Part shown: piece by piece, positions 4,693 to 21,629 of the stretch
How the letters are laid out: the number at the start of each line of letters is the position of its first letter
How positions within the stretch are numbered: the first letter of the stretch is position 1
From: Massilimicrobiota sp. An134
Lineage (GTDB): Bacteria; Bacillota_I; Bacilli_A; Erysipelotrichales; Coprobacillaceae
Reading direction: 5' to 3'
NCBI RefSeq assembly: GCF_002160815.1
Contig: NZ_NFLH01000014.1
Span: forward strand, 1 to 57,084
DNA length: 57,084 nucleotides
Program-made: the position numbers and the translations under genes
Notes under the pieces: generated by a model
Seen by the model: the letters and a program-made list of their open reading frames with translations, nothing else
What the model was told of the DNA's origin: nothing
Database searches by the model: none

Positions 4693-4778
4693 TAAAATTG
4701 GAGCATGAAAAATGATTGCTGTGGTAGGTAATTCTTTTTCATGCTGTGCACTCTAGTTGGCGCTGGAGTGCTTTTTTT
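4693..4778. other. Two hairpins in the repressor-integrase gap (possible small RNA or attenuator)
   Basis: GCATGAAAAA near 4694-4703 is inverted as TTTTTCATGC near 4734-4743. GCACTC (4748-4753) pairs with GAGTGC (4766-4771) and is followed by seven Ts, which is terminator-like on the plus strand. No plus-strand gene precedes it closely, so it may end a short antisense transcript or cap a small RNA. On the minus strand the hairpins lie in the int leader. Confidence 0.4.
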
Positions 4779-5463: not shown

Positions 5464-5488
5464 ATATATGTATTTAACCTCCTTTCTT

Positions 5489-5637: not shown

Positions 5638-5652
5638 AAAGGAGGTGGAAAT

Positions 5653-5856
5653 ATGAAGGTTGACTCAACAAAAATTAAAATCTTACTGATAGAACGTCAA
5701 TTATCAGTAAAGGAGTTTTGTAAAATCAACAACTTGTCTTATAGTACAATCTCTGCAATATTAAGAGGTCAAAGGATTGGGCAACTCAAAACTATCGGAC
5801 AAATTGCTGATGCGTTAGATGTAAGTATTGATAGTATATTAAAAGAAGGAGAATAG
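5653..5856 (+). CDS. Small Cro-like HTH regulator
   Basis: 67 residues from the ATG at 5653, preceded by AAAGGAGGTGG. Almost the whole protein is one XRE helix-turn-helix (VKEFCKINNLSYSTISAIL, then IADALDVSIDSIL). It is the first gene rightward of the switch, opposite the CI-like repressor, so a Cro-like or excision-controlling role is likely. It is followed after 5 bases by the Xis-like gene. Confidence 0.8.
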   Translation: MKVDSTKIKILLIERQLSVKEFCKINNLSYSTISAILRGQRIGQLKTIGQIADALDVSIDSILKEGE

Positions 5857-5861
5857 AAATT

Positions 5862-6050
5862 ATGGAAATTGAAAAAAGTTATTATGATGTATACGATGTA
5901 ATTAAATTATTAGGAGTTAGTAAAAGTAAAGCTTATGCAGTGATGAGAGAGATGAATGATTATTTAGAAGAACAAGGATATTTAGTTATTTCTGGTAAAG
6001 TCCCTGCAAGATATTTTAATGAAAAGTGGTATGGTGGAACACATGCCTAG
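5862..6050 (+). CDS. Excisionase-like small HTH protein
   Basis: 62 residues (YYDVYDVIKLLGVSKSKAYA, then VISGKVPARYFNEKWYG). This matches the HTH_17/Xis-like proteins of Firmicutes integrative elements, with a first helix pair resembling MerR. It likely helps bend attachment-site DNA for excision or regulates the following genes. AAGGAG precedes it, and its end overlaps the start of the PrimPol gene by 8 bases. Confidence 0.7.
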   Translation: MEIEKSYYDVYDVIKLLGVSKSKAYAVMREMNDYLEEQGYLVISGKVPARYFNEKWYGGTHA

Positions 6051-7749
6051 TTTAAAAGAAAGTGCACTAGCCTATGCTAAAGAAGGGCTACGAGTCTTTC
6101 CACTGGCACCAAACAGTAAAGGAAAGCAAGTTCTTCATTCATGGATAAAAGAAGCAACCACGAATCCAGATACTATTGAATATTGGTGGGATACAAATCC
6201 ACAATATAATATTGGTATCGTAACGGGCGAAAAACTATTTGTTATAGATGTTGATATAAAAAATCAACATAATGGAATTGAATCTTTAAAACAATATGGA
6301 AAAGAATTACCTACCACAAAAATGGTGAAATCTCCCTCAAGGGGATTTCATCTTTACTATTATGATGATCGCCAAGAAGTTAAAACATGTACAGGATTGT
6401 ATGATGGTATTGATATACGAGGAAAAGGTGGCTACATTGTAGCACCACCTAGTATGATAAATGGCAATAAATATCAGTTTATTAATAAAGAACCGGTTGC
6501 TAAAATAAATGATGCAGTACGAAACTTTTTAAATAGACATAAAGAAAATCGAGAGAGTTCATTTACAAGTCAAGATATCGTTAATGAAGGATATAGGAAC
6601 GATTATCTATTTCGTATGGCGTGTTTCTTGCAACAAAAAGGATTTAGTGATGTGGCTATCAATGAATGTATTAAAAAAGAGAATGAAGAAAAATGCCAGC
6701 CACCATTAGAAATTCAAGAAATTGAACGTATTGTTCAAAGTACACTAAAATATAAAAAAGGTTCAGTTCAATTACGAAACGAAATTGAGTATGAAAGATC
6801 GTTTACTTTAACACAACTTTATGCTTCTAAAGATGATGATGAAGATGATATTGTTGAAAATATGATATCGGTAGGCCTAACTCTTTTAGGTGCACCACAA
6901 AAATCAGGAAAAACTTTTTTTGGATTGCAGCTATGTGATGCTATTGTAGAAGGTAAAAATTTCTTAGGAAGGAAAGTACAAAAAGGAACAGCGGTCTATC
7001 TTGCTTTTGAAGATAAAAAGACAAAAATCAAAAAAAGATTGCAAAGAATGCAAGTAGACCCCAATGATAAATTTGTTATTGATATTCTTAAGCCGAATCA
7101 TTTGTATGATTTAGAATTAAGAATTGAACAAGAGCTTCAAAGAAATGCAGATTTAAAACTTGTAGTGGTTGATACATTCCATAAGATAAGAAAATCAAAA
7201 GATCGAGATTATGATAGTGAGTATGCCGAAGCGACAATGTATCATGAATTAGCTTGTAAATATCATATTGCGATTATCTTAATAACACATGTAAAAAAAG
7301 AGATAGATGTCAATCATCCATTTGATTCAATCTATGGAAGTAGAGGTTTAACAGCTGGGTCTGATTCAATCCTTGTTATGTATAAGAAGAACCATTTATC
7401 CAAGACACGACAGTTAGCAATACAAGGGAAAGATATACCGGATGATGAAATGACACTATTACAAAATGATAGTATGAATTTAGAAATTACTGAAAATGAG
7501 GATGATGGTGATGTTGATGAAAATGTTATGAAAGTTATTAATTTTATCATTCGAAAAAAAGAATTTATTGGTTCTCATGAAGATTTGTCATCCATTCTTT
7601 CACTTTCACTGACAGGAAGACAGCTTCAAGCTTTACTAGCAAAAAACAGTAATATCCTAGAGTCAACATTTATCTCTTACGAGAAGCAACCACGACAAAA
7701 TAAAGCAAGACCTATTTGTTTAATATATCATGGAAATGAGGAAATTTAG
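6043..7749 (+). CDS. Bifunctional primase-polymerase / RepA-like helicase
   Basis: 568 residues from the ATG at 6043 (MPSLKESALAYAKEGLRVFP), with GGTGGA just upstream; in-frame ATGs at 6019 and 6031 are alternatives. The N-terminal PrimPol domain (about 5-170) has the metal-binding VIDVDIKNQ and SRGFHLYYY. The C-terminal RecA-fold ATPase (about 270-470) has Walker A GAPQKSGKT and Walker B LVVVDTFHK. Such fusions prime and unwind DNA for replication of plasmids and integrative elements, so the excised circle may replicate. It is co-directional with the Cro/Xis-like genes and the mobilization genes. Confidence 0.87.
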   Translation: MPSLKESALAYAKEGLRVFPLAPNSKGKQVLHSWIKEATTNPDTIEYWWDTNPQYNIGIVTGEKLFVIDVDIKNQHNGIESLKQYGKELPTTKMVKSPSRGFHLYYYDDRQEVKTCTGLYDGIDIRGKGGYIVAPPSMINGNKYQFINKEPVAKINDAVRNFLNRHKENRESSFTSQDIVNEGYRNDYLFRMACFLQQKGFSDVAINECIKKENEEKCQPPLEIQEIERIVQSTLKYKKGSVQLRNEIEYERSFTLTQLYASKDDDEDDIVENMISVGLTLLGAPQKSGKTFFGLQLCDAIVEGKNFLGRKVQKGTAVYLAFEDKKTKIKKRLQRMQVDPNDKFVIDILKPNHLYDLELRIEQELQRNADLKLVVVDTFHKIRKSKDRDYDSEYAEATMYHELACKYHIAIILITHVKKEIDVNHPFDSIYGSRGLTAGSDSILVMYKKNHLSKTRQLAIQGKDIPDDEMTLLQNDSMNLEITENEDDGDVDENVMKVINFIIRKKEFIGSHEDLSSILSLSLTGRQLQALLAKNSNILESTFISYEKQPRQNKARPICLIYHGNEEI

Positions 7750-7893
7750 TGACAGTGTGACAGTTATAAGGCAATACTTTTTGACCGTCACACCGTCACT
7801 CCTTAAATAAGTTAAATTTAAGATTTTATGTATTAGCAAGCAACGTATTTTGTCCCCAAAATACAAAATCAAAAGCTGGTACGACCAGCAAGA
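7749..7893 (+). other. Candidate origin of transfer (oriT)
   Basis: This 145-base gene-free gap just upstream of mobC has three inverted repeats. GTGACAGTGTGAC (7749-7761) faces GTCACACCGTCAC (7787-7799) with one mismatch. GTATTTTG and CAAAATAC enclose a 4-base loop near 7848-7867. GCTGGT and ACCAGC enclose ACG near 7875-7889. Stacked hairpins beside relaxase genes are typical of oriT. The nick site itself was not identified. Confidence 0.55.
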
Positions 7894-7905
7894 TTGGAGG
7901 TTCAT

Positions 7906-8217
7906 ATGAAAAGAAATCATGAAATTAAGATACGATTTAATGATGATGAATTTAAAATCTTAAACAATAAATTAGAAAGAACGAGCTTAAGTAGAGAAGC
8001 ATTTTCTAGAGCTTGTATATTAGGTAAAGAGATAAAAGTACCACCTGATCTAGATTATTATAAGTTAAAAAATGAGTTCAATCATATTGGTAATAACCTA
8101 AATCAGATAGCAAGAGCATTGAATAATAGACAAGACATATCACTAAAAACCATCATGGAAACCATCAAAGAATTACGACAAATGATTAAAAATCTTGATG
8201 AAAAAGTAAGGGGTTGA
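7906..8217 (+). CDS. mobC: MobC-like relaxosome accessory protein
   Basis: 103 residues from the ATG at 7906, preceded by TTGGAGGTTC. The N terminus (KRNHEIKIRFNDDEFKIL) looks like a ribbon-helix-helix DNA-binding domain, and FNHIGNNLNQIARALN is the hallmark of the bacterial mobilization MobC family. It should bind the adjacent oriT and assist relaxase nicking. The relaxase TTG start overlaps its TGA stop by 4 bases, implying coupled translation. Confidence 0.82.
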   Translation: MKRNHEIKIRFNDDEFKILNNKLERTSLSREAFSRACILGKEIKVPPDLDYYKLKNEFNHIGNNLNQIARALNNRQDISLKTIMETIKELRQMIKNLDEKVRG

Positions 8218-9485
8218 TTAAAGCAGTAACGTCAATTTGGGCTATCCGAGATCGTTTGGATAATGTCATCAAATATGTCGAAGATGAAAAAAAGACGATG
8301 CAAACGGTCTTGGATTACATCAGCCAAGATAATAAAGTCAAACAAAAAAAGTATGTAACTTGTCTTAATTGTGATGCATTTGCCCCATTAAAATCGATGC
8401 AGATGACTAAAAAATTGTTCCATGATCATAAAAAAATCGTAGCATTTCATGGTTATCAGTCATTTAAAATCGGTGAGGTCGATGCAAATATTGCACATGA
8501 AATTGGTGTAAAGTTTGCACAAAAAGTGTTTGGAAATCGTTATGAAGTTGTCGTTAGCACACACCTAGACAAAGATCATATCCATAATCATATCTTGATA
8601 AATTCAACTTCATTCATTGATGGAAAACGATTCTGTAATACAAAAAAAGATTACTGGAACATGAGAAATACGTCTGATGAATTATGCAAAGAATATGGAT
8701 TATCTATCATTGAAGATCCATCATACGATTCAAAAAAGTTGAATTATCATATCATGAAAACCTATATGAATGACATAAAAAAGGATATAGATGCTCTTGT
8801 AAAAGAGAGTAATTGTATTAAAGATTTAAAGGGTAATATGAAAAAGAAAGGGTATGAGTTCGAAAGAATCGATGGAGAAGATGTCGTTTATCATCCATAT
8901 TGTAATGAACCAATCTATCTAAAATTGTTAGGAGAAAAGTATCATCTTGATGAAATTGAAGAAAGATTGACTGACAAATGGATCCTTCCTCAAAACGTTG
9001 AACATACACAAAGTTATTATCGTTGTAAGGAATATTATCAACTTTATAAAAGAAAACAGTTACCTAAGCTAGCAGGAATCCATGTTGCTTATCTTATTTC
9101 AATTAATATCTTACCTACAAGAAAGCAACATATCTCTAAAGAAGCAAGACAAGCACTCAAGAAAATGGATCAATACTCTAGAGAAATCGAACTTCTTGCC
9201 AAGAACAAGATAGAAGATATTGATCAATTAAATAATTATCAACAACAAAAACAAGATGAACTCAATGACTTATTAAAACAAAGACAAGGTTGTTATTATC
9301 AACGACAACGATCAAGAACGATGGGTGAAAAAGAAGAATGGTCAGCAAAAGCAAAGTTATTTACACCAGAAATAAAGAAACTAAGGCTTCAAATCAAAGC
9401 GTGTGAGAACATCAGGAATCGTAGTTTTGATAAAGATATCGAAAGAATAGCACAAAAGAAAATTAAACAAAGAGGTGCAAGATAG
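8214..9485 (+). CDS. mobA: Relaxase / mobilization nuclease (MOBP-like)
   Basis: 423 residues. The start is a TTG at 8214 overlapping the mobC stop. The N-terminal relaxase domain (about 1-250) opens with TSIWAIRDRLDNVIKYVED and has the metal-binding motif THLDKDHIHNHILINS at about 115-130. The C-terminal part is basic and helical (about 300-423). It nicks oriT, attaches covalently to the 5' end and pilots the strand through a helper conjugation channel. With MobC and the upstream oriT it makes the element mobilizable; no transfer apparatus is present. Confidence 0.9.
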   Translation: MIKAVTSIWAIRDRLDNVIKYVEDEKKTMQTVLDYISQDNKVKQKKYVTCLNCDAFAPLKSMQMTKKLFHDHKKIVAFHGYQSFKIGEVDANIAHEIGVKFAQKVFGNRYEVVVSTHLDKDHIHNHILINSTSFIDGKRFCNTKKDYWNMRNTSDELCKEYGLSIIEDPSYDSKKLNYHIMKTYMNDIKKDIDALVKESNCIKDLKGNMKKKGYEFERIDGEDVVYHPYCNEPIYLKLLGEKYHLDEIEERLTDKWILPQNVEHTQSYYRCKEYYQLYKRKQLPKLAGIHVAYLISINILPTRKQHISKEARQALKKMDQYSREIELLAKNKIEDIDQLNNYQQQKQDELNDLLKQRQGCYYQRQRSRTMGEKEEWSAKAKLFTPEIKKLRLQIKACENIRNRSFDKDIERIAQKKIKQRGAR

Positions 9486-9497
9486 GAGGATAAAATC

Positions 9498-9842
9498 ATG
9501 AAAGAAATCAAGTATAACACAGTAGGGGATTATGAATTTCCGTCATTAAAAGAAGAAAGACCTTTACCAAATTTATCTAGATTTGGAAGAGAATATTTAA
9601 GAATATTAAAGGAAAAACATCCAGGGCATTACCTAGCCTTACGAGCAAGAGATGAGCTAAATGAAGAACTGATTCGTATGGATAAAGAGTTAAACCAGCG
9701 ATATGAAACCCTTGTTGAACAATACAAAGTATCAAAAAACATAACTGAAGAATTGAAAGAACAAGACCAAATGAAATGGGTTCAAGAGATGAATAATATC
9801 AAAAATTGTGTGGAAGAAATTATCTGGAATGAAATGGATTGA
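9498..9842 (+). CDS. TnpV-family transposon-encoded protein
   Basis: 114 residues. The conserved features of the TnpV family are visible: LSRFGREYLRILKEKHPG, then a helical region ending ELKEQDQMKWVQEMNNI. TnpV proteins are common passengers of Firmicutes integrative elements; their function is unknown. It sits 12 bases after the relaxase with its own AGGAGG site and is closed by a strong terminator overlapping its stop, so it is probably the last gene of the mobilization operon. Confidence 0.75.
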   Translation: MKEIKYNTVGDYEFPSLKEERPLPNLSRFGREYLRILKEKHPGHYLALRARDELNEELIRMDKELNQRYETLVEQYKVSKNITEELKEQDQMKWVQEMNNIKNCVEEIIWNEMD

Positions 9843-9864
9843 AGTAGGGGAACCTACTTCTTTT
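9841..9864 (+). terminator. Terminator of the mobilization operon
   Basis: GAAGTAGG (9841-9848) and CCTACTTC (9853-9860) form a perfect 8-bp stem with a GGAA loop, followed by TTTT. The stem starts inside the TnpV stop codon. It separates element core genes from the restriction cargo. Confidence 0.85.
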
Positions 9865-10037
9865 AATTTAATCATTTTGGTCTTCAATTTAGTCATTTGT
9901 CTCAGAATTGACTAAATTAAAGTGTAGTAATGGTAATTATATTATCGAAATTGATAAAAAACTTGTAAAAGTGCAAGAAAACTATATAAATGATTGCAAA
10001 TAAAATATATAATTATAAATAGTATGGAGGATAGTCT

Positions 10038-10253
10038 ATGAAAGTATGTTACAACAAATTTTTTAAATTATTGATTGATAGAGGAATTAGAAAAATGGAA
10101 TTTGCTAAGATGGCAGGTATTAGTCAAAATACGATGGCGAGACTTTCTCGAAATCAGAATGTTTCATTAGATGTACTAGGAAAAATATGTTGTACTTTAG
10201 ATTGTAAGATAGATGATATTCTTGAATTTATATCAGAAGATAAGGAGAAATAG
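10038..10253 (+). CDS. Small XRE-type regulator of the restriction operon
   Basis: 71 residues, essentially one Cro/CI-type HTH (MEFAKMAGISQNTMARLS, then LGKICCTLDCKIDDILEF). GGAGG precedes the ATG. The stop overlaps the region of the hsdM start. Small XRE proteins heading RM operons often act as controller proteins timing methylase and nuclease expression. That role is inferred from position. Confidence 0.75.
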   Translation: MKVCYNKFFKLLIDRGIRKMEFAKMAGISQNTMARLSRNQNVSLDVLGKICCTLDCKIDDILEFISEDKEK

Positions 10254-10255
10254 TG

Positions 10256-11761
10256 ATGGCAAAAGACAATACAAAAATAGGATTTGAAAAACAAATATGG
10301 GATGCAGCCTGTGTTCTTTGGGGGCATATTCCAGCAGCAGATTATCGTAAAGTGATTGTTGGCTTGATATTTTTAAGATACATTTCTAGTGCATTTGAAA
10401 AACGATACAATGAACTAGTAGAAGAAGGTTATGGTTTTGAAAATGATAAAGATGCATATATAGAAGAAAATATATTTTATGTACCTGAAAAAGCACGTTG
10501 GAATGTAATTGCTTCTGCAGCACATACGCCTGAAATTGGAACTGTATTAGATGATGCAATGAGAGCAATCGAAGATGAAAATAAGAGCCTTAAAAATGTA
10601 TTACCAAAGATATATGGTAGCCCTGATTTAGATAAACGAGTATTAGGCGAAGTTGTTGATTTATTCACAAACGAAGTTAATATGGAAGATATTGATGGAG
10701 ATCGAGATATATTAGGTCGTACATATGAATATTGCATAGCACAGTTTGCAGCATATGAAGGAACAAAAGGTGGAGAGTTCTATACACCTTCTAGTATTGT
10801 TAAAACAATTGTTGAAATATTGAAACCTTTTGAAGATTGTCGAGTGTATGATCCATGTTGTGGGTCTGGAGGAATGTTTGTACAAAGTGTAAAATTTCTA
10901 CAAGCACATTCTGGCAATAGAAATAGAATATCTGTTTATGGTCAAGAATCAAATGCTGATACATGGAAAATGGCTAAGATGAATATGGCAATTAGAGGCA
11001 TTGATGCAGATTTTGGACCATATCAAGCAGATACATTCTTTAATGATTTACACAAAACATTAAAAGCAGACTTTATCATGGCAAATCCACCATTCAATTT
11101 AAAAAACTGGGGGCAGGATAAATTAAAGGATGATGTTCGTTGGAAATATGGGTTACCACCTGAAGGAAATGCGAACTTTGCATGGATTCAGCACATGATT
11201 CACCATTTGGCACCAAATGGAAAAATAGGTTTAGTATTAGCTAATGGTGCATTATCATCTCAAACATCAGGAGAAGGAGAAATTCGAAAAAATATTATAG
11301 AAGCAGATCTAATCGAAGGAATTGTAGCATTACCAACACAATTATTCTATAGTGTTACAATCCCTGTAACATTATGGTTTATTAGTAAAAATAAAAAACA
11401 AAAAGGAAGAACTCTCTTCATTGATGCACGCAAAATGGGATATATGGTAGATCGTAAACATAGAGACTTTACTACTGAAGATATTAAAAAGCTAGCTGAC
11501 ACGTTTGAATTATTTCAAAGTGGTACCTTAGAAGAGGTAAAAGGATTTTGTGCCATTGCGACCACAGAAGATATAGCAAAACAAGACTATATTTTAACTC
11601 CAGGAAGATATGTAGGTATTGCGGAACAAGAAGATGATGGAGAGCTATTTGATGATAAGATGAAACGTCTAACTTCTGAATTGTCAGACATGTTTAAAAA
11701 GTCTCGTGAGTTAGAGGATGAGATACGCAAAAAATTGAGTGCAATTGGATATGAAATATAA
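10256..11761 (+). CDS. hsdM: Type I restriction-modification methyltransferase subunit
   Basis: 501 residues from the ATG at 10256, with AAGGAG 8 bases upstream; a GTG at 10253 is less well spaced. An N-terminal HsdM helical domain (about 1-140; FLRYISSAFE) precedes the N6-adenine methylase fold, with SAM motif DPCCGSGGMF (about 200) and catalytic NPPF (about 279). The C-terminal helical tail should contact HsdS. It forms M2S1 and, with HsdR, the restriction complex. It reads into two hsdS loci and, beyond, hsdR. Confidence 0.95.
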   Translation: MAKDNTKIGFEKQIWDAACVLWGHIPAADYRKVIVGLIFLRYISSAFEKRYNELVEEGYGFENDKDAYIEENIFYVPEKARWNVIASAAHTPEIGTVLDDAMRAIEDENKSLKNVLPKIYGSPDLDKRVLGEVVDLFTNEVNMEDIDGDRDILGRTYEYCIAQFAAYEGTKGGEFYTPSSIVKTIVEILKPFEDCRVYDPCCGSGGMFVQSVKFLQAHSGNRNRISVYGQESNADTWKMAKMNMAIRGIDADFGPYQADTFFNDLHKTLKADFIMANPPFNLKNWGQDKLKDDVRWKYGLPPEGNANFAWIQHMIHHLAPNGKIGLVLANGALSSQTSGEGEIRKNIIEADLIEGIVALPTQLFYSVTIPVTLWFISKNKKQKGRTLFIDARKMGYMVDRKHRDFTTEDIKKLADTFELFQSGTLEEVKGFCAIATTEDIAKQDYILTPGRYVGIAEQEDDGELFDDKMKRLTSELSDMFKKSRELEDEIRKKLSAIGYEI

Positions 11762-11897
11762 CTTTGCTATATTATTTAAATGTGCTGTGAGTAAATTCAT
11801 TTGTGTGAAATTAAATATTGGTTAAGGATACTAATCGGATATTTTATTAACTTAAGAACATATTTAAAATATTTTAACAGGTATAGAAAAGTTCATC

Positions 11898-12005
11898 GAG
11901 TAGCTTTAGCAACTCTTAGATCATGGGAAAATAGATACAACTTTTCAGTACGCAATGGAAAAACAGAGCAATGTTAAGATTGTTCACTTAAAATACATTA
12001 GATAA
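11898..12005 (+). pseudogene. Relic of the 3' end of a tyrosine recombinase
   Basis: In the frame starting GAG at 11898 the bases read E*L*QLLDHGKIDTTFQYAM followed by KQSNVKIVHLKYIR and a stop. This closely matches the end of the intact recombinase at 13326-14309 (EQLQQLLGHRKIDTTLQYAM). Two stops replace glutamine codons, both C-to-T changes. The identical AGAGGAAAAGATTATGG leader follows in both places. A recombinase-hsdS unit was therefore duplicated and one recombinase decayed. Upstream bases 11762-11897 hold nothing else recognisable. Confidence 0.85.
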
Positions 12006-12018
12006 AGAGGAAAAGATT

Positions 12019-12576
12019 ATGGTTGAATGGATTGAGAAAAGTCTTGGAGAAATTGCAGAAGTAACAAAACTGGCTGGTTTCGAGTTTACTAAGCATATAA
12101 AATACAACAGTGATGGAGAAATTATAGCGTTGAGAGCTCTAAATTTGAGAAACGGAGAACTAGATTTAACTGATATCAAAAGAATATCAAGAGAAGTGTC
12201 AGAAAGATTGACTAGAAGTAAAATTTATAAAGACGACATATTGTTAACTTATACAGGAAATGGGTATGGCGATTGTGCAATAATAGAAGATAATGATAAG
12301 TACCATTTAGCACCCAATATTTGCAAAATTGTACCTAATAATAAAGAAGTTTTCCCATATTATTTATATTGCTATATTCGTTCCAAAGCCTTTTATAATC
12401 AAATGTCTAACAATATGACGGGATCTGGACAACCTACCATTCCAATGAAAACAATAAGGCTGCTAAAAGTACCAGTACCAGAAATGAGTGTGCAAATAAA
12501 TGTTGCTAATATGATATGGTTGCTCAATCAAAAAATACGCAATAACAGAGCGATAAACAATAATTTAGCGGCTTAA
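12019..12576 (+). CDS. hsdS: Truncated HsdS carrying one recognition domain (half-gene a, OFF form)
   Basis: 185 residues: one target-recognition domain (about 1-150, starting MVEWIEKSLGEIAEVTKL) and the start of the central spacer helix (NQKIRNNRAINNNL). The frame then crosses site 1 and stops after two codons (AA*), because the DNA beyond belongs to an inverted second half. A normal type I HsdS has two recognition domains (about 390-410 residues). Flipping the segment between sites 1 and 2 would join this frame in register to half c. A single-domain HsdS can in principle work as a dimer. Good ribosome binding site AGAGGAAAAG. Confidence 0.85.
   Translation: MVEWIEKSLGEIAEVTKLAGFEFTKHIKYNSDGEIIALRALNLRNGELDLTDIKRISREVSERLTRSKIYKDDILLTYTGNGYGDCAIIEDNDKYHLAPNICKIVPNNKEVFPYYLYCYIRSKAFYNQMSNNMTGSGQPTIPMKTIRLLKVPVPEMSVQINVANMIWLLNQKIRNNRAINNNLAA
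12553..12568 (+). repeat. hsdS recombination site 1 (plus orientation)
   Basis: ATAAACAATAATTTAG, encoding INNNL in the HsdS spacer helix. It is identical to sites 2-4 and imperfectly palindromic (TAAA...TTTA), as expected for a tyrosine-recombinase core. It faces site 2 in inverted orientation. Confidence 0.85.
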
Positions 12577-13205
12577 AGCTCAATGCCTGACACATCAATC
12601 TCGCCGGACATTAAACGAGGTAAAAGAGTATCTCGAAGCTTTGCTAAGCGTTTGTTTTCTAAACGGTTATTAACAATCTGTTCTATCATCGGCGCTGTTA
12701 TTTCGTCGAACTTGTTGAGCGTACTCTCATCAGGTAGCAAGATTTCAAAAGAGTCGTAATCTTTTTTGCCTATATGAATTACAGTTGTAGCAACCTGTGT
12801 TTGCTCAATATGATTCAGTAAAGGCTTAATACTGTAAAGAACAAACGCTTTTCTCTTTGGTTGTTTATTTTCAAAAATACATACTCGTTGGTTAAGCCAA
12901 GCTTCTTCATTACCCCAAATGTATGGACGGAATTCTCCATCCATACCAACTACAATGTCACCGGGATGAATTAAATGACCTTTTGGATGTATTTCTGTTG
13001 TAAAGGTTACAAATTCTTGTTCCTTTAGGTCACGAATACGAATGATAGGTTTACCAAATCCTTCCGTATTGAACATTTTTGAAGCAAAAGGAGCACCATA
13101 GATAATGTTTGCAACAGAATATATATCTGTAAGTTTCCAGTTAGCTGGCTTTGTCCCATTAAATGGCTCATAATCAACAAACCAAGATTTGTAGAGCGCT
13201 TGCAT
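12573..13205 (-). CDS. Silent HsdS second half (recognition domain c), inverted cassette
   Basis: 210 codons on the minus strand from MQALYKSWFVDYEPFNG to the C-terminal LMSGEIDVSGIEL, the standard end of an HsdS. Upstream of the apparent ATG the frame continues through site 2 as INNNLDEQ, the same register as the spacer of half-gene a. It therefore lacks its first half and promoter and is a storage cassette. Inversion between sites 1 and 2 would give an a+c HsdS of about 400 residues. It ends 4 bases into the stop region of half-gene a. Confidence 0.85.
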   Translation of the reverse strand: MQALYKSWFVDYEPFNGTKPANWKLTDIYSVANIIYGAPFASKMFNTEGFGKPIIRIRDLKEQEFVTFTTEIHPKGHLIHPGDIVVGMDGEFRPYIWGNEEAWLNQRVCIFENKQPKRKAFVLYSIKPLLNHIEQTQVATTVIHIGKKDYDSFEILLPDESTLNKFDEITAPMIEQIVNNRLENKRLAKLRDTLLPRLMSGEIDVSGIEL

Positions 13206-13213
13206 TTGTTCAT

Positions 13214-13229
13214 CTAAATTATTGTTTAT
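13214..13229 (-). repeat. hsdS recombination site 2 (minus orientation)
   Basis: CTAAATTATTGTTTAT, the exact reverse complement of site 1, just upstream of silent half c. Together with site 1 it brackets a segment of about 680 bp. Confidence 0.85.
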
Positions 13230-13325
13230 AATATATCCGATAACTCCCGTGGGTGGCGGGAGTTAATATCAGGGGACTTCCGCCTCATTGTCGTTCTCTA
13301 AGATTTATTCAAAGGAGAATTGACT

Positions 13326-14309
13326 GTGAAACAAAATTTAATTAAAGACGTTGTTCAGGAAATGTTACCTTTCTTAAACAATGCACAAAGCGAAAAATTG
13401 CAAGAAGTTTTGAAATATGCTCTTGGAAAATACGAGGTAACAGAAAATAAAGAGACAGAGATAATCTTGGAGCAGGACTTTGTTGAACTGTTCTTATCTG
13501 CAAAACGAATAGAGGGCTGCTCTGAGAAATCTCTAAAATATTATAAAGCAACCATTGAAGCTATGATTGCGGAATTACAAAAAAACGTTAAGCATATTGT
13601 AACAGATGATATTCGCAATTATCTTACTCACTATCAAGAGAAAAATGGTTCAAGTAAAGTTACAATAGATAATATTCGCCGTATTTTATCAAGCTTCTTT
13701 TCTTGGTTGGAGGATGAGGATTATATACTGAAAAGCCCCGTCAGACGCATATACAGAGTGAAAACTGGAACAAATATCAAGGAAACATATTCCGATGAGG
13801 CGTTAGAACTTATGAGAGATAATTGTACGGAATTAAGAGATTTGGCGATGATAGATATGCTTGCGTCAACAGGTATGCGTGTCGGCGAAATGGTATTGCT
13901 AAATCGAAATGATATTGATTTCAATGAAAGAGAATGTATTGTGTTCGGTAAAGGAAGCAAAGAGCGTGTGGTCTACTTTGATGCTCGAACTAAGATACAT
14001 TTACAGAATTATTTAGAAAGCAGAACAGATGATAATCCGGCGTTGTTTGTATCGCTTAAGTCACCTCACGAAAGGCTAAAAATCGGCGGTGTTGAAGTCC
14101 GTCTGCGTGAATACGGAAAACGATTAGGTTTGCAAAAAGTACACCCACACAAGTTTAGGCGTACACTTGCAACTATGGCAATAGATAAAGGAATGCCTAC
14201 TGAGCAGCTTCAGCAGCTCTTGGGACATAGGAAGATAGATACAACCTTGCAGTATGCAATGGTAAAACAGAGCAATGTTAAAATTGCTCACCGAAAATAC
14301 ATTGGATAG
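13326..14309 (+). CDS. Tyrosine recombinase of the hsdS shufflon
   Basis: 327 residues from the GTG at 13326 (AAGGAG 8 bases upstream); a TTG at 13320 is too close to that site. An N-terminal SAM-like domain (about 40-130) precedes the catalytic domain with R in STGMRVGEM (about 181), HPHKFRRTLA (about 274) and Y in TTLQYAMV (about 309). It lies between two hsdS loci bearing four copies of a 16-bp site, so it most likely inverts hsdS segments rather than mobilizing an element. Its codons are slightly more GC-rich than its neighbours'. A GC-rich hairpin (TAACTCCCG/CGGGAGTTA, near 13241-13265) precedes it. Confidence 0.9.
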   Translation: MKQNLIKDVVQEMLPFLNNAQSEKLQEVLKYALGKYEVTENKETEIILEQDFVELFLSAKRIEGCSEKSLKYYKATIEAMIAELQKNVKHIVTDDIRNYLTHYQEKNGSSKVTIDNIRRILSSFFSWLEDEDYILKSPVRRIYRVKTGTNIKETYSDEALELMRDNCTELRDLAMIDMLASTGMRVGEMVLLNRNDIDFNERECIVFGKGSKERVVYFDARTKIHLQNYLESRTDDNPALFVSLKSPHERLKIGGVEVRLREYGKRLGLQKVHPHKFRRTLATMAIDKGMPTEQLQQLLGHRKIDTTLQYAMVKQSNVKIAHRKYIG

Positions 14310-14322
14310 AGAGGAAAAGATT

Positions 14323-15498
14323 ATGGCTGAACAAATCACAACGTTAGCTTCACTAACGGTAAACGGAAAAGGTTCATACGGAATTGGTGCAAGTGCCGTT
14401 CCTTTCTCAAGAGATTTATATACCTATTTGAGAATTACAGATATAAAAGATGACGGAACACTCAATCTACAAGATTTGAAATCGGTTGATGATGATAAAG
14501 CTTCGGAATATCTTTTAAAACCGAACGATATTGTATTTGCAAGAACAGGAGCAAGTACTGGAAGAAATTATTTTTACGATGGAACAGACGGGGAGTTTGT
14601 ATATGCAGGATTTCTTATTAAATTCAGTATTGATGAGAAAAAAGTAAATCCTAAATATATAAAGTATTTCTGTCAATCTAAACAGTATAAGGACTGGATT
14701 AACTCCTTTAATACTGGTAGCACACGTGGAAACATAAATGCTCAAACTCTTGGAAAAATGCCGATTCCTCTAATTGAGAGAAAGAAACAAGATGCTTTGG
14801 TAAGTATTCTTTCAAGTATAGACGAAAAAATTAAGAAGAATGAAGCAATAAACAATAATTTAGAGCAGCAAGCACAGACTTTGTTTGAAAATACTTTTTG
14901 TAAACCCGCAGATTTTGCTACAAAACGAATTTCATTGTCGAACTTAATGGACTATGCCGGTGGAAGCCAACCACCTGCTTCCGAATTCATTTTTAGCCCG
15001 CAAGAGGGTTACATTCGTTTTGTTCAAATTAGAGATTACGATACTGACAGTCACATTACATATATACCTGTTTCTTCCAAAAACAAGCTTTGTGAAGAAC
15101 ACGATATAATGATTGCCCGATATGGTGCATCTTTGGGGCGAATCTGCTTCGGAATTAACGGAGCTTATAATGTTGCTCTTGCTAAGGTTTTTCCAAAGAA
15201 AACCTTTTACAGAGAGTTTCTTCGATGCTACTTATCCTCTCGCACATTTTATGAAGGGATAAACAATAAAGGTGGAAGAAGCGCACAATCAGGGTTCAAT
15301 CAAAGTGATATAAACTCTTTTGAGATAGAATTTCCGCTTGATGAGGCCATCGTAAAGAACTTTGAAGATATTATTGCGCCAATGTTTGAGCAACGTTTGC
15401 AACTTAAAAAAGAAAACCAATACCTTTCTTCTTTGCGTGATACCCTTTTACCAAAACTGATGTCTGGTGAGATTGATGTGTCTAACATCGAGCTTTAA
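14323..15498 (+). CDS. hsdS: Full-length HsdS specificity subunit (recognition domains b+d, ON form)
   Basis: 391 residues from the ATG at 14323 (leader GAGGAAAAGATT, the same as for half-gene a). The first recognition domain covers about 1-165, the spacer helix with INNNLEQQAQTLFENTF begins near 175, the second domain is about 200-350, and the tail ends LMSGEIDVSNIEL. It directs the M2S and R2M2S complexes to a bipartite target. Site 3 lies in the spacer codons and site 4 just after the stop, so the second domain is itself an invertible cassette. It follows the recombinase by 13 bases. Confidence 0.93.
   Translation: MAEQITTLASLTVNGKGSYGIGASAVPFSRDLYTYLRITDIKDDGTLNLQDLKSVDDDKASEYLLKPNDIVFARTGASTGRNYFYDGTDGEFVYAGFLIKFSIDEKKVNPKYIKYFCQSKQYKDWINSFNTGSTRGNINAQTLGKMPIPLIERKKQDALVSILSSIDEKIKKNEAINNNLEQQAQTLFENTFCKPADFATKRISLSNLMDYAGGSQPPASEFIFSPQEGYIRFVQIRDYDTDSHITYIPVSSKNKLCEEHDIMIARYGASLGRICFGINGAYNVALAKVFPKKTFYREFLRCYLSSRTFYEGINNKGGRSAQSGFNQSDINSFEIEFPLDEAIVKNFEDIIAPMFEQRLQLKKENQYLSSLRDTLLPKLMSGEIDVSNIEL
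14848..14863 (+). repeat. hsdS recombination site 3 (plus orientation)
   Basis: ATAAACAATAATTTAG within the spacer of the active hsdS, identical to site 1 and in the same reading register (INNNL). Confidence 0.85.
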
Positions 15499-15502
15499 GC
15501 TA

Positions 15503-15518
15503 CTAAATTATTGTTTAT
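15503..15518 (-). repeat. hsdS recombination site 4 (minus orientation)
   Basis: CTAAATTATTGTTTAT, 5 bases after the stop of the active hsdS. Inversion of 14848-15518 would leave the first half ending NNNLVA*, matching the NNNLAA* end of half-gene a. Confidence 0.85.
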
Positions 15519-15538
15519 AAAAACAAAAGGAGTTTATA

Positions 15539-16420
15539 ATGATTGAATGGGTAGATAAATATAGTAATGTAATACAAATTATAATAGGTTTACTTTCTTT
15601 AGGTGCAACATTTTTTGTTTCGTTTAGAATATATCAGTTACAAAAAAGACATGAACAAGAAATAGAAATGATGGAAGAAAATGAACAAAAAAGAAAATTA
15701 GAGGAAGAAGCACATAGGTTTTTAATAGATAATGCAGAAGAGATTGATTATTTGCCTTGGTGTGTTATTGCTAGTAACTTATCTAGACATCAAAAACATA
15801 CTCGTAAAATATACACGAATTTTTGTAAATGTTCTATAGAATTACAAAATGAAATAATGCGTGTTGAACAATACAATATACGTACTATTGATGATATAAA
15901 TTGGATAGATAAAGCCATAGAGTCACTAAGAAACGATATTAAAAAATTTCAATTGGCTCAACGTGATTATTTGTATGATAACGCAAAATATTTTCATAGA
16001 GCTTTTGAACATTATAAGGAAAAGAAATGGGAAAGAACTCCACGAATTTTTGAACCGATCAATAAATTTAAACAATTTTCAAAGATATGTTTTACAGATG
16101 GCAAGTTAAATATTGGAAATTATATTAATGAGTATCTTAATTTGTATATAGATAATTCAGATTTATGTATTGGTAAACCAAAACCACCATTTGATTATGT
16201 ATGGCAAGATCAAAAGTTATCTTCTATAGATACAGATGAAGAAATAGTTTGTTGGTGGATAATGGATTTGGTTTTTTATACTGTAATGAATCTTTATAAC
16301 CATGATATCTATGATTCAAAAATATTAATAAACGATATAACGGATGCACAAGTTAATACATTTGAAGATAAATACTTTCAAACAATGTTTGTATTATATT
16401 GTATATACTGCAATTCATAA
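15539..16420 (+). CDS. Membrane-anchored protein of unknown function in the RM operon
   Basis: 293 residues, family not recognised. One transmembrane segment at about 10-31 (IQIIIGLLSLGATFFVSF) is followed by a charged coiled-coil (about 33-56; EIEMMEENEQKRKLEEEA) and a soluble helical domain rich in aromatic residues. AAAAGGAG precedes the ATG. It lies between hsdS and hsdR, co-directional and closely spaced, so it is probably co-transcribed. An anti-phage accessory or membrane-tethering role is possible but is inference only. Confidence 0.7.
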   Translation: MIEWVDKYSNVIQIIIGLLSLGATFFVSFRIYQLQKRHEQEIEMMEENEQKRKLEEEAHRFLIDNAEEIDYLPWCVIASNLSRHQKHTRKIYTNFCKCSIELQNEIMRVEQYNIRTIDDINWIDKAIESLRNDIKKFQLAQRDYLYDNAKYFHRAFEHYKEKKWERTPRIFEPINKFKQFSKICFTDGKLNIGNYINEYLNLYIDNSDLCIGKPKPPFDYVWQDQKLSSIDTDEEIVCWWIMDLVFYTVMNLYNHDIYDSKILINDITDAQVNTFEDKYFQTMFVLYCIYCNS

Positions 16421-16505
16421 AATATTAATTAGAAAATCAAGAAGAGAAAAAAATAATTTTGAGTATAAAGCAAAACACATCATTGATGTAAAAATGGGGG
16501 AATAT

Positions 16506-17324
16506 ATGAAAAAGAAAATAATTGAATCTATATTTATGATAGTTTTAGTAATAATAATAGGAATAATTATATCATATATTTTTGGCTTTCAAATTACATA
16601 TAATCCTTCTTTAGATAATAATTGGGATGCTCTTTCAGTATGTGCTTCTTGGACTGGAGTTTTTACTTCTTTAATAGCGATTATTGTTGCTATTAAAGTT
16701 CCTGAAAAAATTGCTAAAAATCAAAATGATATTTCCTTATTTGAAAAACGTTGGGAATTGCGTGAAATAGTATCTGAATTGAAAGATTTTGGGAATGCAC
16801 TTTCAAAAATAAAAAAATCAGATATTGACGAATTAAGTATTATAACAAAATCTAGACATTATTTAATTGTTTTTATGTATAGCGGTGATCGTGATGAAGA
16901 AATACAAAAGAAAATTGGATTAAATATAAAGAATATCTATGATGAACATAAACAGTTGATAGGGTATCAGATTATTGATTGTAAAGATAGTGATTTAGAC
17001 GAGTATGAAAGAAATTTTAAAACTTATATTGGTAGACAAAAAAGAATTATCAAACAGTATTCATTATTGCTTGATCGAGATAGTGAATATATATTAACGA
17101 GAATAGCTGATGTGTATTATAAATTGATGATAGAAATATTAATGGGCAGTGATTTGAAAAATAATGATATTTTATCATTTAAAAGTAATCCTGAATTTGA
17201 AAAATATTTTTTTGATGCAGATAGTACTGAAAAAGTAAAAAATGAATTTTTAAATATGATTAAAGAAATGGAAGAGAAGCTCGTCTTTGAAAAAATTGAA
17301 GAATATCTGAGAATAAAGGAGTGA
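16506..17324 (+). CDS. Second membrane protein of unknown function in the RM operon
   Basis: 272 residues from the ATG at 16506, preceded by GGGGG; a longer frame from 16344 overlaps the previous gene and lacks a good ribosome binding site. Two hydrophobic segments are visible: about 6-28 (MIVLVIIIGIIISYIFGF) and about 43-63 (SWTGVFTSLIAIIVAIKV). A soluble helical region of about 200 residues follows. Family not recognised. Its TGA stop is 5 bases before the hsdR ATG. With the preceding gene it forms a pair of small-membrane-domain proteins embedded in the type I locus. Confidence 0.7.
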   Translation: MKKKIIESIFMIVLVIIIGIIISYIFGFQITYNPSLDNNWDALSVCASWTGVFTSLIAIIVAIKVPEKIAKNQNDISLFEKRWELREIVSELKDFGNALSKIKKSDIDELSIITKSRHYLIVFMYSGDRDEEIQKKIGLNIKNIYDEHKQLIGYQIIDCKDSDLDEYERNFKTYIGRQKRIIKQYSLLLDRDSEYILTRIADVYYKLMIEILMGSDLKNNDILSFKSNPEFEKYFFDADSTEKVKNEFLNMIKEMEEKLVFEKIEEYLRIKE

Positions 17325-17329
17325 GAATC

Positions 17330-20300
17330 ATGCATCAAGTATACAATGAAGAAAGTTACGAAAATTCAATAGTAGATTTATTTGAAAATGACTTACAATA
17401 TCAACGTGTTTATGGTCCTGATATTGTAAGAGATTTTTATAACCCTTTATATGAAGATGTTTTACTAGAATCGATTGAACGAATTAATAGAAGATTACCT
17501 CGTAGTGCTATAGATGATGCGCTATATAAATTGAAAAACTTCGAAAATGGTGAATTGGTTCAAAAGAATATGGTTTTTATGGATTATCTTCAAAATGGAG
17601 TACCTGTTCGTTATTTTGATGGTAGTGAAGAAAAGTCTTCGATTGTTTATTTGATTGATTATGATAATGTAAATAATAATTCATTTATTGTGGCTAACCA
17701 ATGGACGTTTATTGAAAGTAGTAATAAAAGACCAGATATCATATTGTTTATTAATGGATTGCCACTAGTATTAATGGAATTAAAATCTCCTTCTAGAGAA
17801 GAAACAGATGCTTCAGAGGCTTATCGTCAATTACGGAATTATATGCATGAGATTCCATCGATGTTTATTTATAATGCCATCTGTGTGATGAGTGATCATC
17901 TTGTATCAAAAGCTGGAACGATTACTTCAGGTGAAGATCGCTTTATGGAATGGAAGAGTAAAGATGGAAATCGAGTAAATGACAAGTTTGCTCAATTCGA
18001 TACTTTTTTTGAAGGAATTTTTGAAAAAGAAAGATTGTTAGATATTATTAAAAATTTTATTTGTTTTTCAAATGAAGGAATTAAAACTTTTAAAATATTA
18101 GCAGGGTATCATCAATATTTCGCAGTAAAAAAAGCCATTGTTTCGACAAAAAATGCAACACAAACAGATGGAAAAGCAGGAGTATTTTGGCATACACAAG
18201 GAAGTGGAAAATCATTATCCATGGTGTTCTATGCTCATTTGTTACAAAAAGCATTAAATAGTCCAACTATTGTTGTTATTACTGATAGAAATGATTTAGA
18301 TGATCAGTTATATGGACAATTTAGTAAATGCAAAGATTTTTTAAGACAGACTCCTATTCAAGCAGAAAGTAGAGATCATTTAAAACAATTATTAGAAGGT
18401 AGACAAGCCAATGGTATCATCTTTACAACAATGCAAAAGTTTGAAGAATATGGTGTTGCATTGTCTGATAGAAGAAATATTGTTGTAATGGCAGATGAAG
18501 CACATCGTGGGCAATATGGATTAACTGAAAAAATAAAAATGACTAAAAATGAACAAGGCGAAGAAATAGCAAAACGTACAGTAGGGATTGCTAGAATTAT
18601 TCGTGATAGTTTACCTAATGCGACTTTTATTGGATTTACTGGAACGCCTATTTCTTCAGCAGACCGTAATACTACGGAAGTTTTTGGTAAATATATAGAT
18701 ATATATGACATGACACAAGCGGTAGAAGATGGGGCAACAAGACCAGTGTATTATGAAAGTCGTGTTGTAAAATTAAATTTGGACGAAGAAACTTTAAAAA
18801 TCATCGATGACGAATATGATTTAATGGCTAGTAATGCTGACGAAGCAGTTATCGAAAAGAGTAAGAAAAAACTAGGACAAATGGAGGCTATTCTGGGTAA
18901 TAATAGCACGATAGATTCTTTGGTAAATGATATCATCTATCATTATGAAGAAAATCGTGAACACTTATTAACAGGTAAAGCCATGATTGTTGCATATTCT
19001 AGACCGATTGCAATGAAGATTTATGAAAAGATACTTGAATTAAGACCTCATTGGAAACAAGAAGAAAAGGTTGCTGTAGTAATGACTTCCGGGAATAAAG
19101 ATCCTGAAGAATGGCATGAAATTATTGGGAATAAAGCGCATAAAGAAGAACTAGCTAAGAAGTTTAAAGATAATAGTAGTTCTTTAAAAATAACAATTGT
19201 TGTGGATATGTGGTTGACAGGATTTGATGTACCATCATTAGCAACAATGTATGTTTATAAACCAATGCGTGGACATAATTTGATGCAGGCCATTGCACGA
19301 GTTAATCGTGTCTTCGGAGATAAAGAAGGTGGACTTGTTGTTGATTATATTGGTATTGCAGGAGCTTTAAAACAAGCGATGAATGATTATACAACAAGAG
19401 ATAAAAAGAATTATGGAGATATGAATATCGTAGATATAGCATATCCTAAATTCTTGGAAAAATTATCAGTTTGCCAAGATTTGTTCTATGGTTATGATTA
19501 TAGTTTATTTAAAACCGGAACAGAATTACAAAGAGCAAAAGTAATTTCTGGTGCAGTAAACTTCATTATTGATCCAGTAAGAGAAGAAGATAAAGATATT
19601 TTTGTGAAGGAAGCATTATTAATGCATCAAGCATTATCATTGTGTTCATCTATTGTGAATGAAGAAAATCGTTTTGAGGCAGCCTTTTTTGAAACAATTC
19701 GTGTCATGGTAAATCGATTAATGAATAATGGTAATGGTCAGAAGCTATCCTTGCCAGATATTAATGAAAGAATAAATGAATTATTAAAGCAAAGCATTAA
19801 AAGTGATGGAGTAATCAATCTTTTCTCATCGATCAAGGAAGAGTTCTCATTGTTTGATCCTAAATTTCTTGAAGATGTCGCAAAAATGAAAGAAAAAAAT
19901 CTAGCTATTGAGTTGTTAAAACGATTAATAGCAGATCAAGTAGCTGTATATAAGAGAACCAATGTTGTAAAATCTGCAAAATTTAGCGAAATTATAAAAG
20001 CGACACTTAATCGTTATATTAACGGAATGATTACAAATGAGGAAGTAATACAAGAACTTTTAACATTAGCAAAACAAATTACTGATGCACAAAATGAAGG
20101 TAATAAGTTAGGTCTTACAGCTGATGAATTAGCTTTTTATGATGCATTAACAAAGCCACAAGCAATTAAAGATTTTTATGAGAATGAAGAGTTAATTGCA
20201 ATAACTAAGGAACTAGCAGATACACTTCGTAAAAACAGTACTATTGATTGGCAGAAGAGAGAATCAGCAAGAGCAAATATGAGGATGAAGATTAAGAGAT

Positions 20301-20392
20301 TATTAAAGATACATAGATATCCACCTGATGGAATGGATGATGCAGTTCAAACTGTCATGATGCAATGTGAGATGTGGGCTGATAACCAATGA
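17330..20392 (+). CDS. hsdR: Type I restriction endonuclease subunit
   Basis: 1020 residues from the ATG at 17330, with AAGGAG 8 bases upstream. The N-terminal PD-(D/E)xK nuclease domain (about 30-230) has the catalytic LVLMELKSP near 150. Two RecA-like motor domains follow: Walker A HTQGSGKS (about 287), DEAH box MADEAH (about 388), GFTGTP (about 440) and motif VI QAIARVNRVF (about 650). The C-terminal helical region binds HsdM. It translocates DNA and cuts far from the recognition site. Expression downstream of hsdM and hsdS suits delayed nuclease production. Confidence 0.96.
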   Translation: MHQVYNEESYENSIVDLFENDLQYQRVYGPDIVRDFYNPLYEDVLLESIERINRRLPRSAIDDALYKLKNFENGELVQKNMVFMDYLQNGVPVRYFDGSEEKSSIVYLIDYDNVNNNSFIVANQWTFIESSNKRPDIILFINGLPLVLMELKSPSREETDASEAYRQLRNYMHEIPSMFIYNAICVMSDHLVSKAGTITSGEDRFMEWKSKDGNRVNDKFAQFDTFFEGIFEKERLLDIIKNFICFSNEGIKTFKILAGYHQYFAVKKAIVSTKNATQTDGKAGVFWHTQGSGKSLSMVFYAHLLQKALNSPTIVVITDRNDLDDQLYGQFSKCKDFLRQTPIQAESRDHLKQLLEGRQANGIIFTTMQKFEEYGVALSDRRNIVVMADEAHRGQYGLTEKIKMTKNEQGEEIAKRTVGIARIIRDSLPNATFIGFTGTPISSADRNTTEVFGKYIDIYDMTQAVEDGATRPVYYESRVVKLNLDEETLKIIDDEYDLMASNADEAVIEKSKKKLGQMEAILGNNSTIDSLVNDIIYHYEENREHLLTGKAMIVAYSRPIAMKIYEKILELRPHWKQEEKVAVVMTSGNKDPEEWHEIIGNKAHKEELAKKFKDNSSSLKITIVVDMWLTGFDVPSLATMYVYKPMRGHNLMQAIARVNRVFGDKEGGLVVDYIGIAGALKQAMNDYTTRDKKNYGDMNIVDIAYPKFLEKLSVCQDLFYGYDYSLFKTGTELQRAKVISGAVNFIIDPVREEDKDIFVKEALLMHQALSLCSSIVNEENRFEAAFFETIRVMVNRLMNNGNGQKLSLPDINERINELLKQSIKSDGVINLFSSIKEEFSLFDPKFLEDVAKMKEKNLAIELLKRLIADQVAVYKRTNVVKSAKFSEIIKATLNRYINGMITNEEVIQELLTLAKQITDAQNEGNKLGLTADELAFYDALTKPQAIKDFYENEELIAITKELADTLRKNSTIDWQKRESARANMRMKIKRLLKIHRYPPDGMDDAVQTVMMQCEMWADNQ

Positions 20393-20411
20393 TTGATAGG
20401 AGTGTAATATT

Positions 20412-21251
20412 ATGGTTCATGGAAAAGCAATAGAGTTATTTTTAGTAAATGGGACCGCAGAGAGTTTAGTAACTGCTGAATTATCAAATTGGAATGGTAA
20501 AGCAATTAAAATCCCTAGAACAGAAGTTCAACAATGTAATCGTGAGGATCTTAGAAATGCGGGAGTATATTTCTTATTTTGTAAGGAAGATTCTGATATA
20601 GATTCTGTTTACATAGGAGAAGCTGAAAATGTGTTGGATAGACTAAATCAACATTTAAGAGATTATAATTCTGATAAAGAAAAATACTATTGGAATTCAG
20701 CTGTTGTTTTTACAGGAAGGGATTTAAATAAAGCTTTGATACGTTATTTAGAAAATAGATTTGTTGAGATAGCAAGAGAATGTGGTCGTTATCAGATATT
20801 AACTAAAAATACATATAAGAATACAGTGATGAAAGAATCTCAGATTGCTTCTATGGAAGAGTTTATTGATAATGTAAAGATAATTATTAATACATTAGGA
20901 TATAAAGTTCTTGAACCAGTTCCACATGCAGACGAAAAAACAGTGTATTTGTATTGTAAAGGAAGTGGAGCAAATGCTAAAGGATTTGTTAGTTCTGGTG
21001 GATTTACAGTTTTAAAAGGATCGAAAGTATCTGATCACATGGTTTCTTCGTTTGAATTAAGAGGAAGATCTTATTTCAATTTAACGAATAAATTAGTGGA
21101 TGATGGAATTATTGTAAATGATATTTTTGAAAAAGATTATGAATTTAATGCACCTTCAGCCGCCTCTGCAGTGATTCTTGGCCGTACAAGTAACGGGAAT
21201 ATCGATTGGAAAAATGACTCTGGTATATCTTTAAAAGATATTAATGAGTGA
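20412..21251 (+). CDS. GIY-YIG nuclease-family protein with DUF4357 C terminus
   Basis: 279 residues. The GIY-YIG fold (about 45-130) shows GVYFLFCKED and DSVYIGEAENVLDRLNQHL, with a later ENRF glutamate. The C-terminal DUF4357-like domain (about 185-279) has KGFVSSGGFTVLKGS. These proteins often accompany type I RM genes, but their activity is not established. It lies 19 bases after hsdR with its own ribosome binding site. After the TGA stop the same frame stays open for 46 more codons (to 21392), so a longer ancestral protein or a tiny coupled ORF is possible. Confidence 0.82.
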   Translation: MVHGKAIELFLVNGTAESLVTAELSNWNGKAIKIPRTEVQQCNREDLRNAGVYFLFCKEDSDIDSVYIGEAENVLDRLNQHLRDYNSDKEKYYWNSAVVFTGRDLNKALIRYLENRFVEIARECGRYQILTKNTYKNTVMKESQIASMEEFIDNVKIIINTLGYKVLEPVPHADEKTVYLYCKGSGANAKGFVSSGGFTVLKGSKVSDHMVSSFELRGRSYFNLTNKLVDDGIIVNDIFEKDYEFNAPSAASAVILGRTSNGNIDWKNDSGISLKDINE

Positions 21252-21433
21252 TTGGATGAACGAACTAACTCTAAGGTATCTTTGTCGATTAAATTACAAA
21301 AAATTACTGAACTTCTCGGCATAGGATTAACAATATATAGAATAGATTTTGATGAGATAAAAAAACATAAATTATTGGATTGGAAATATTAAAAAAGTAA
21401 TTAATGAAATTTGTTAAAATGAGAGTGTTTCTT

Positions 21434-21463
21434 AACAAACGGATTAGATAGCGGTTTGTTTTT
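21434..21463 (+). terminator. Terminator of the type I RM operon
   Basis: AACAAAC (21434-21440) and GTTTGTT (21454-21460) form a stem followed by TTT within TTGTTTTTG. It lies in the 380-base gap after the GIY-YIG gene. The rest of the gap (21252-21629) holds only the 46-codon in-frame extension and no recognised gene. Confidence 0.6.
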
Positions 21464-21629
21464 GTAACAATGATGTACTGTTTTGATAATATAAGAAACA
21501 TTCCATGAAGTTTGTACAATAGATTAATTTATTATTTGAAGGAAATAATACAGAATGGTGATATACCGTTATATTATTAGAAAATGAATTTCATAATTAA
21601 AAATGATAATGTTTTTAAGGGGTGAAAAA

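Follow-up and report, generated by a model that had tools for sequence, protein, structure and literature searches.

A probable SsuCC20p-type specificity selector in a mobilizable element of Massilimicrobiota sp. An134

Type I restriction-modification (RM) systems that switch specificity alter phage and plasmid resistance as well as genome-wide methylation. One such system is SsuCC20p of Streptococcus suis CC20 (first described in PMC5198162), in which recombinase-dependent shuffling has been shown (PMC10790761, mBio 2023). Deletion of xerD demonstrated that shuffling needs this gene. Every assembly carries one complete hsdS, and single cultures hold several alleles. Among long reads, none contained two complete hsdS genes, and truncated-only and xerD-inverted forms were present at low level. 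The authors left the mechanism open, suggested coordinated double recombination and reported the locus to be restricted to streptococci (PMC10790761). Here, we describe a type I RM locus from Massilimicrobiota sp. An134 that is very probably an SsuCC20p-type specificity selector. It lies in a 57,084-nucleotide stretch of DNA (contig NZ_NFLH01000014.1), referred to as the window, to which coordinates refer unless stated otherwise. SsuCC20p-type shuffling as such is already known; what is added here is the evidence from about 80 relatives with a four-site layout, mostly from Bacillota.

Other described loci resemble it in part. The pneumococcal ivr/cod locus (SpnIII, PsrA/CreX) likewise uses a tyrosine recombinase, which acts on hsdS at an inverted repeat of 15 bp, but possesses three different repeat pairs (15, 85 and ~300 bp), and its only functional hsdS is the one beside hsdM, the rest being donors. 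In the pneumococcal tvr locus (SpnIV, TvrR) a tyrosine recombinase shuffles HsdS halves and a complete hsdS is possible before and after the recombinase gene. In contrast to the window locus, tvr relies on direct repeats, circle excision and toxin-antitoxin control of the recombinase, and arrangements with two complete hsdS genes occur. Assignment to the tvr type was rejected because the sites of the window locus are oriented +,-,+,- rather than uniformly and only a 90-bp gap separates site 2 from the recombinase gene, where TvrAT would be expected. The hsd locus of Listeria monocytogenes CC8 also has two hsdS genes around an integrase gene and four configurations, but these arise at two repeat pairs (16 and 29 bp) by inversions of 3.3 and 2.3 kb (PMC4783014).

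Anatomy of the locus

The features of the locus are as follows.

10253..11761, plus strand: hsdM, type I N6-adenine methyltransferase subunit (Pfam N6_Mtase 5.8e-110, HsdM_N 2.5e-24; PADLOC MTase_I)
11867..12018, plus strand: remnant 3' end of a recombinase gene, immediately before half a (80% identical to 14171-14331; 85% over 130 bp)
12019..12576, plus strand: half a, HsdS first half with the N-terminal target recognition domain (TRD), OFF as assembled (Methylase_S 4e-13; ends INNNL-AA-stop)
12553..12568, plus strand: recombination site 1 (exact 16-mer)
12573..13205, minus strand: half c, a second half of HsdS, in reverse orientation and silent in the assembly (Methylase_S 5.5e-08; in-frame joint to a or b after inversion)
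13214..13229, minus strand: recombination site 2 (exact 16-mer)
13320..14309, plus strand: XerC/D-like tyrosine recombinase (Phage_integrase 3.5e-32; NCBIfam recomb_XerA_Arch above cut-off)
14323..14847, plus strand: half b, a first half of HsdS, continuous with d and ON in the assembly (reading frame, profile match)
14848..14863, plus strand: recombination site 3, in frame within the intact hsdS (exact 16-mer)
14863..15498, plus strand: half d, a second half of HsdS with 33% identity to c (reading frame)
15503..15518, minus strand: recombination site 4 (exact 16-mer)
15539..16420, plus strand: uncharacterised open reading frame (ORF) between site 4 and hsdR (without Pfam, NCBIfam or PADLOC match)
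16506..17324, plus strand: uncharacterised ORF in the same interval (likewise without Pfam, NCBIfam or PADLOC match)
17321..20392, plus strand: hsdR, type I restriction subunit (TIGR00348 8.3e-179)

The gene order, with hsdM, HsdS halves, a tyrosine recombinase gene between the hsdS copies, further HsdS halves and hsdR, is that of the SsuCC20p type. Each second half is enclosed by inverted repeats of ~14 bp, TAAA-N6-TTTA in form, and the two sets are identical. A motif search of the window found exact copies of ATAAACAATAATTTAG at 12553 (+), 13214 (-), 14848 (+) and 15503 (-), as a preliminary description of this DNA had reported; with up to two mismatches there were five matches against 0.59 expected in shuffled sequence. 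The 2.56-Mb genome holds eight copies, confined to two loci of like layout, against ~0.03 expected by chance. When HsdS was aligned to 1yf2 and 7vru, the copies proved to be INNNL codons in the central HsdS helix or to lie just outside genes, in agreement with the placement proposed earlier.

As assembled, b+d (14323-15498) is a complete hsdS of 391 amino acids and half a is truncated by the reversed half c, so that the locus contains exactly one complete hsdS. In-silico inversion between sites 1 and 2 fuses a and c into one frame of 396 amino acids, and inversion between sites 2 and 3 gives b+c on the minus strand (393 amino acids). Both joints had been anticipated. The further prediction that inversion 1-4 would give a+d was not borne out: the product is half a followed by VA*, with b+d merely flipped, and a+d requires at least two inversions (for instance 3-4 and then 1-4) or a 1x3 deletion. 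Nor are the 1-3 and 2-4 deletions necessarily the dead ends they were taken for; excision and reintegration are documented for pneumococcal tvr (PMC6265443).

The reading frames of HsdM, HsdR and the two-TRD HsdS (b+d) are intact, and the catalytic R-K-H-R-H-Y residues of the recombinase are present by inspection. The window locus thus has all parts of a type I RM system, predicted from these intact frames to be active, together with an XerC/D-like recombinase. The earlier view of a phase-variable type I RM locus with a dedicated tyrosine recombinase and four possible specificities on a mobilizable element is supported throughout. It had also called the double-locus layout notable, but this layout is standard in a family that is widespread and has SsuCC20p as its characterised member. 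Both loci comprise hsdM, four TRD halves, a recombinase gene between the hsdS copies, hsdR and two hypothetical genes; both have two identical 14-bp inverted-repeat sets of the same form and one complete hsdS per assembly, and both reside on a mobile element. They differ in the spacer, TCATCA in SsuCC20p and CAATAA at the window locus, and in their host element, a prophage as opposed to a mobilizable element integrated at rpsR. Moreover, the Massilimicrobiota genome has two paralogous loci and a recombinase remnant before half a. The SsuCC20p repeat is TAAATCATCATTTA, identical to the repeats of Lactococcus and E. faecium loci found in this study, and the window recombinase is 63-64% identical to the recombinases at those loci. 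Judged from its DNA sequence, by layout, site form and one-on state, the window locus is a member of the SsuCC20p family.

Switching would proceed as follows. The XerC/D-like recombinase, presumably active in Massilimicrobiota sp. An134, would bring the four identical sites together in pairs, with strand exchange in the central bases of TAAA-N6-TTTA. In this way the cassettes c and d, both of which lie between a + and a - site, would be inverted in place or moved behind a or b. Stable products would be four arrangements (a+c, a+d, b+c, b+d) with one complete hsdS each, the gene starting with b presumably being transcribed from its position behind the recombinase gene. One HsdM and one HsdR could thereby serve four predicted methylation and restriction specificities, with b+d on as assembled. 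Four alternative specificities, one on at a time, are the likely output.

The surroundings of half a bear on this reading. About 150 bp ahead of it resemble the recombinase 3' end and the start region of b, a feature unique to the window locus among 70 loci, and the simplest reading is that half a derives from behind the recombinase gene of another such locus. Expression of a may be lowered here by this remnant and by the 258 bp that separate hsdM from half a, a point against this reading. A promoter scan gave no excess over shuffled sequence. Near-identical DNA to the window locus was not found among plasmids.

Relatives and the central bases of the site

Relatives were chosen by similarity to the window recombinase, and the census thus covers only its close family, each assembly representing one majority state. 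A scan of genomes with the recombinase yielded 80 loci, mostly from Bacillota, and plasmid and viral collections gave more. The final census imposed AAA...TTT arms and one common core per locus and replaced earlier, more relaxed scans, in which long ORFs had given unrelated matches. Of 120 census loci, 80 had four sites in the +-|+- layout; the remaining loci were mostly cut by contig ends or had recombinases below ~65% identity. For a Methanosphaera plasmid and most recombinases below ~62% identity, the site type was not shown in the census. A de novo inverted-repeat search around the recombinase gene, based on exact repeats with no motif imposed, recovered a like site type in most relatives (dozens). 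A layout reported as streptococcal is now seen across Bacillota, many of them from gut or mouth. A published REBASE survey set 20 bp as the minimum length of an exact inverted repeat, a threshold at which 34 of the 80 loci, the window locus included, would be missed.

The central six bases are common within a locus and differ between loci. Among the 12 versions, CAATAA occurs in 28 loci; others include CAAGAA, CGATAA, TGATAA, CGAGAA, TCATCA and TACTAA. Identity of the core within a locus rests on the de novo search because the census, which imposes one core, cannot alone prove it. On the recombinase tree the spacer is inherited (22 changes as compared to 42.2 in shuffles). At the non-coding sites 2 and 4, conservation ends at the upstream edge of the site. 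The central bases behave like a crossover spacer, for which partners must match and loci may differ. One relative with mixed spacers (L097, 6031-8526), with CGAGAA at sites 1 and 2 and CAATAA at site 3, offers a ready-made test in nature of whether spacers must match. Some relatives are expanded and carry six or five sites (L061, 2894-8113, and L123); L061 has two b/d units of equal length in tandem.

Conservation of this kind could in principle reflect a static relic, the repeats being kept merely as INNNL coding in the HsdS spacer while nothing moves. Sites 1 and 3 do lie within conserved coding sequence. However, sites 2 and 4 are outside intact genes and yet have the same bases, each locus uses a single synonymous spelling, and natural rearrangements cut at the sites, which contradicts the idea for the family. 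The static reading is very improbable and was rejected because non-coding site copies keep their sequence and relatives are rearranged at them.

Such rearrangements are directly observed. Half a, the segment from the recombinase gene to b, and the downstream flank show 100% identity among four Lactococcus plasmids, which nevertheless exist in three arrangements. In pJM2A and pUC073A, cassette X lies behind a (a+X on) and Z is reversed. In pUCCL627F, Z lies behind a (a+Z on) and X is reversed. In pJM1A (L149, 4276-7182), X is reversed behind a, a second X stands behind b (b+X on) and Z is lost. All breakpoints in these plasmids are exactly the sites. The doubled X with loss of Z in pJM1A implies cassette duplication or exchange between molecules. 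In another pair of loci (L082 and L084), 99.8-100% identical otherwise, the difference consists of an inversion of the left cassette and a replacement of the right. The one difference between L049 and L050, Ruminococcus loci that otherwise nearly coincide, is the right-hand second half, which suggests cassette replacement between strains. Together, the differences in pJM1A and in these two pairs indicate that cassettes are also replaced and duplicated. A swap at direct repeats as the sole mechanism was found insufficient, as the steps from pJM2A to pUCCL627F and from L082 to L084 need cassette inversions.

RecA-dependent homologous recombination between hsdS copies, with no part for the recombinase, might be considered as well. 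The conserved cassette ends of 60-100 bp would provide homology, and the breakpoints of the L049/L050 replacement fit either route. Against this, the longest exact inverted repeat at the window locus is 17 bp, and SsuCC20p shuffling stops without xerD. We regard this route as highly unlikely, marginally more so even than a static relic.

Origin of the one-on rule

A comparison was possible for 73 loci, in which half a is next to hsdM and half b follows the recombinase gene. Exactly one hsdS was complete in 70 of them, 35 with a only and 35 with b only (Fisher p=2.9e-17). In the exceptions, both copies (one locus, L064) or neither (two loci, L042 and L143) were complete. After near-duplicates had been thinned the rule held in 63 of 66 loci (p=5e-15). 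The recombinase segment was flipped in 5 of 80 four-site loci. Which copy is on varies at random over the recombinase tree, with 23 changes against a mean of 23.7 in shuffles. As the spacer is inherited on the same tree, switching must be fast relative to recombinase divergence and nearly always end with one complete hsdS.

Inversion alone can reach 16 states, including two with both hsdS genes complete and two with none. From the assembled state, a single 1x2 or 3x4 exchange leaves both or neither hsdS complete, and a single 1x4 or 2x3 exchange flips the recombinase segment. Free single inversions predict that about half of the loci have both or neither complete and that the recombinase segment is flipped half the time. 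Set against the observed 3/73 and 5/80, the net reactions look paired or selected. According to the state table, the double exchanges 1x2+3x4, 1x4+2x3 and 1x3+2x4 would each preserve a single complete hsdS without moving the recombinase segment, and would link four states that carry each of the four specificities once.

Coordinated double exchange of this kind (1x2+3x4, 1x4+2x3, or 1x3+2x4 via excision and reintegration) might be the mechanistic rule. In support of this, 70 of the 73 loci are in states so linked and flipped segments are rare among the 80. The step from pJM2A to pUCCL627F is the exact 1x4+2x3 product, and SsuCC20p shows two concurrent inversions or TRDs trading place, with no read containing two complete hsdS genes. 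On the other hand, snapshots are compatible with selection, five relatives have an inverted recombinase segment, and three depart from the rule, with two complete hsdS genes or none. We consider coupled exchange possible but somewhat doubtful because single-exchange products, the truncated-only and xerD-inverted forms, were seen at low level in the S. suis reads.

Independent single inversions, as in the preliminary description, followed by selection against two, no or untranscribed hsdS genes, could produce the same pattern and have about an even chance of being the explanation. Tyrosine recombinases invert between any inverted pair, the rare both, neither and flipped forms exist in relatives, and in the state table a chain via flipped-recombinase states stays within the one-on set. 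However, strong selection against the both-on state would be required across dozens of taxa, and 2+2 arrangements of pneumococcal tvr, in which two hsdS genes are complete, do occur in nature. The one-on rule turns the open remark on coordinated double recombination in SsuCC20p into a testable question. A tempting, if rather unlikely, reading is that a closed set of paired exchanges forms a built-in 'one and only one' selector, moving the locus among exactly four single-HsdS states and never through two or none, and that this is a general device of Bacillota mobile elements. As two loci with identical 16-bp sites share one genome, cassette exchange between them could widen the set.

The second locus and the host element

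The SsuCC20p-type selector proposed for the window has a paralogue on another contig of the same genome (L009, G000:C10, span 35840-38817). It has a like layout with identical 16-bp sites at 35840+/36510-/38126+/38802-. Its hsdM and hsdR show ~77% DNA identity to those of the window locus, and its recombinase 68% protein identity. As in the window, b is on and a is off. Exchange between the two loci (contigs C6 and C10) is possible in principle, but no shared cassette was seen. Cassette sharing was rejected since the DNA match is limited to conserved ends, half c and its C10 counterpart being 29% identical in protein. The second locus carries an FRG-domain gene between its site 4 and hsdR. Accessory genes vary in this slot, from the uncharacterised ORFs of the window (15539-17324) to DUF3800 (L147) and the FRG domain (L009).

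The element that carries the window locus is bounded as follows.

1537..27651, no strand: integrative mobilizable element with CATACGTTGGTGAATA direct repeats, at the 3' end of rpsR

The 16-bp direct repeats at 1537-1552 and 27636-27651 enclose 26.1 kb with genes for an integrase, a primase, NikA/MobC and a relaxase. In a genome of the same genus, an identical rpsR protein adjoins the same right flank directly and marks the empty site. Integrase, relaxase, terminal direct repeats and this empty site identify an integrative mobilizable element. It is probably mobilizable and not self-transmissible because no transfer apparatus was noticed in the 26.1 kb. Downstream of hsdR, the interval 20412-27045 likely holds further defence genes. 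It encodes a GIY-YIG/DUF4357 protein (PADLOC PDC-S14), an SMC-like protein of 823 amino acids, and an AAA_15 ATPase beside a DUF3226 protein (PtuA/AriA-like scores).

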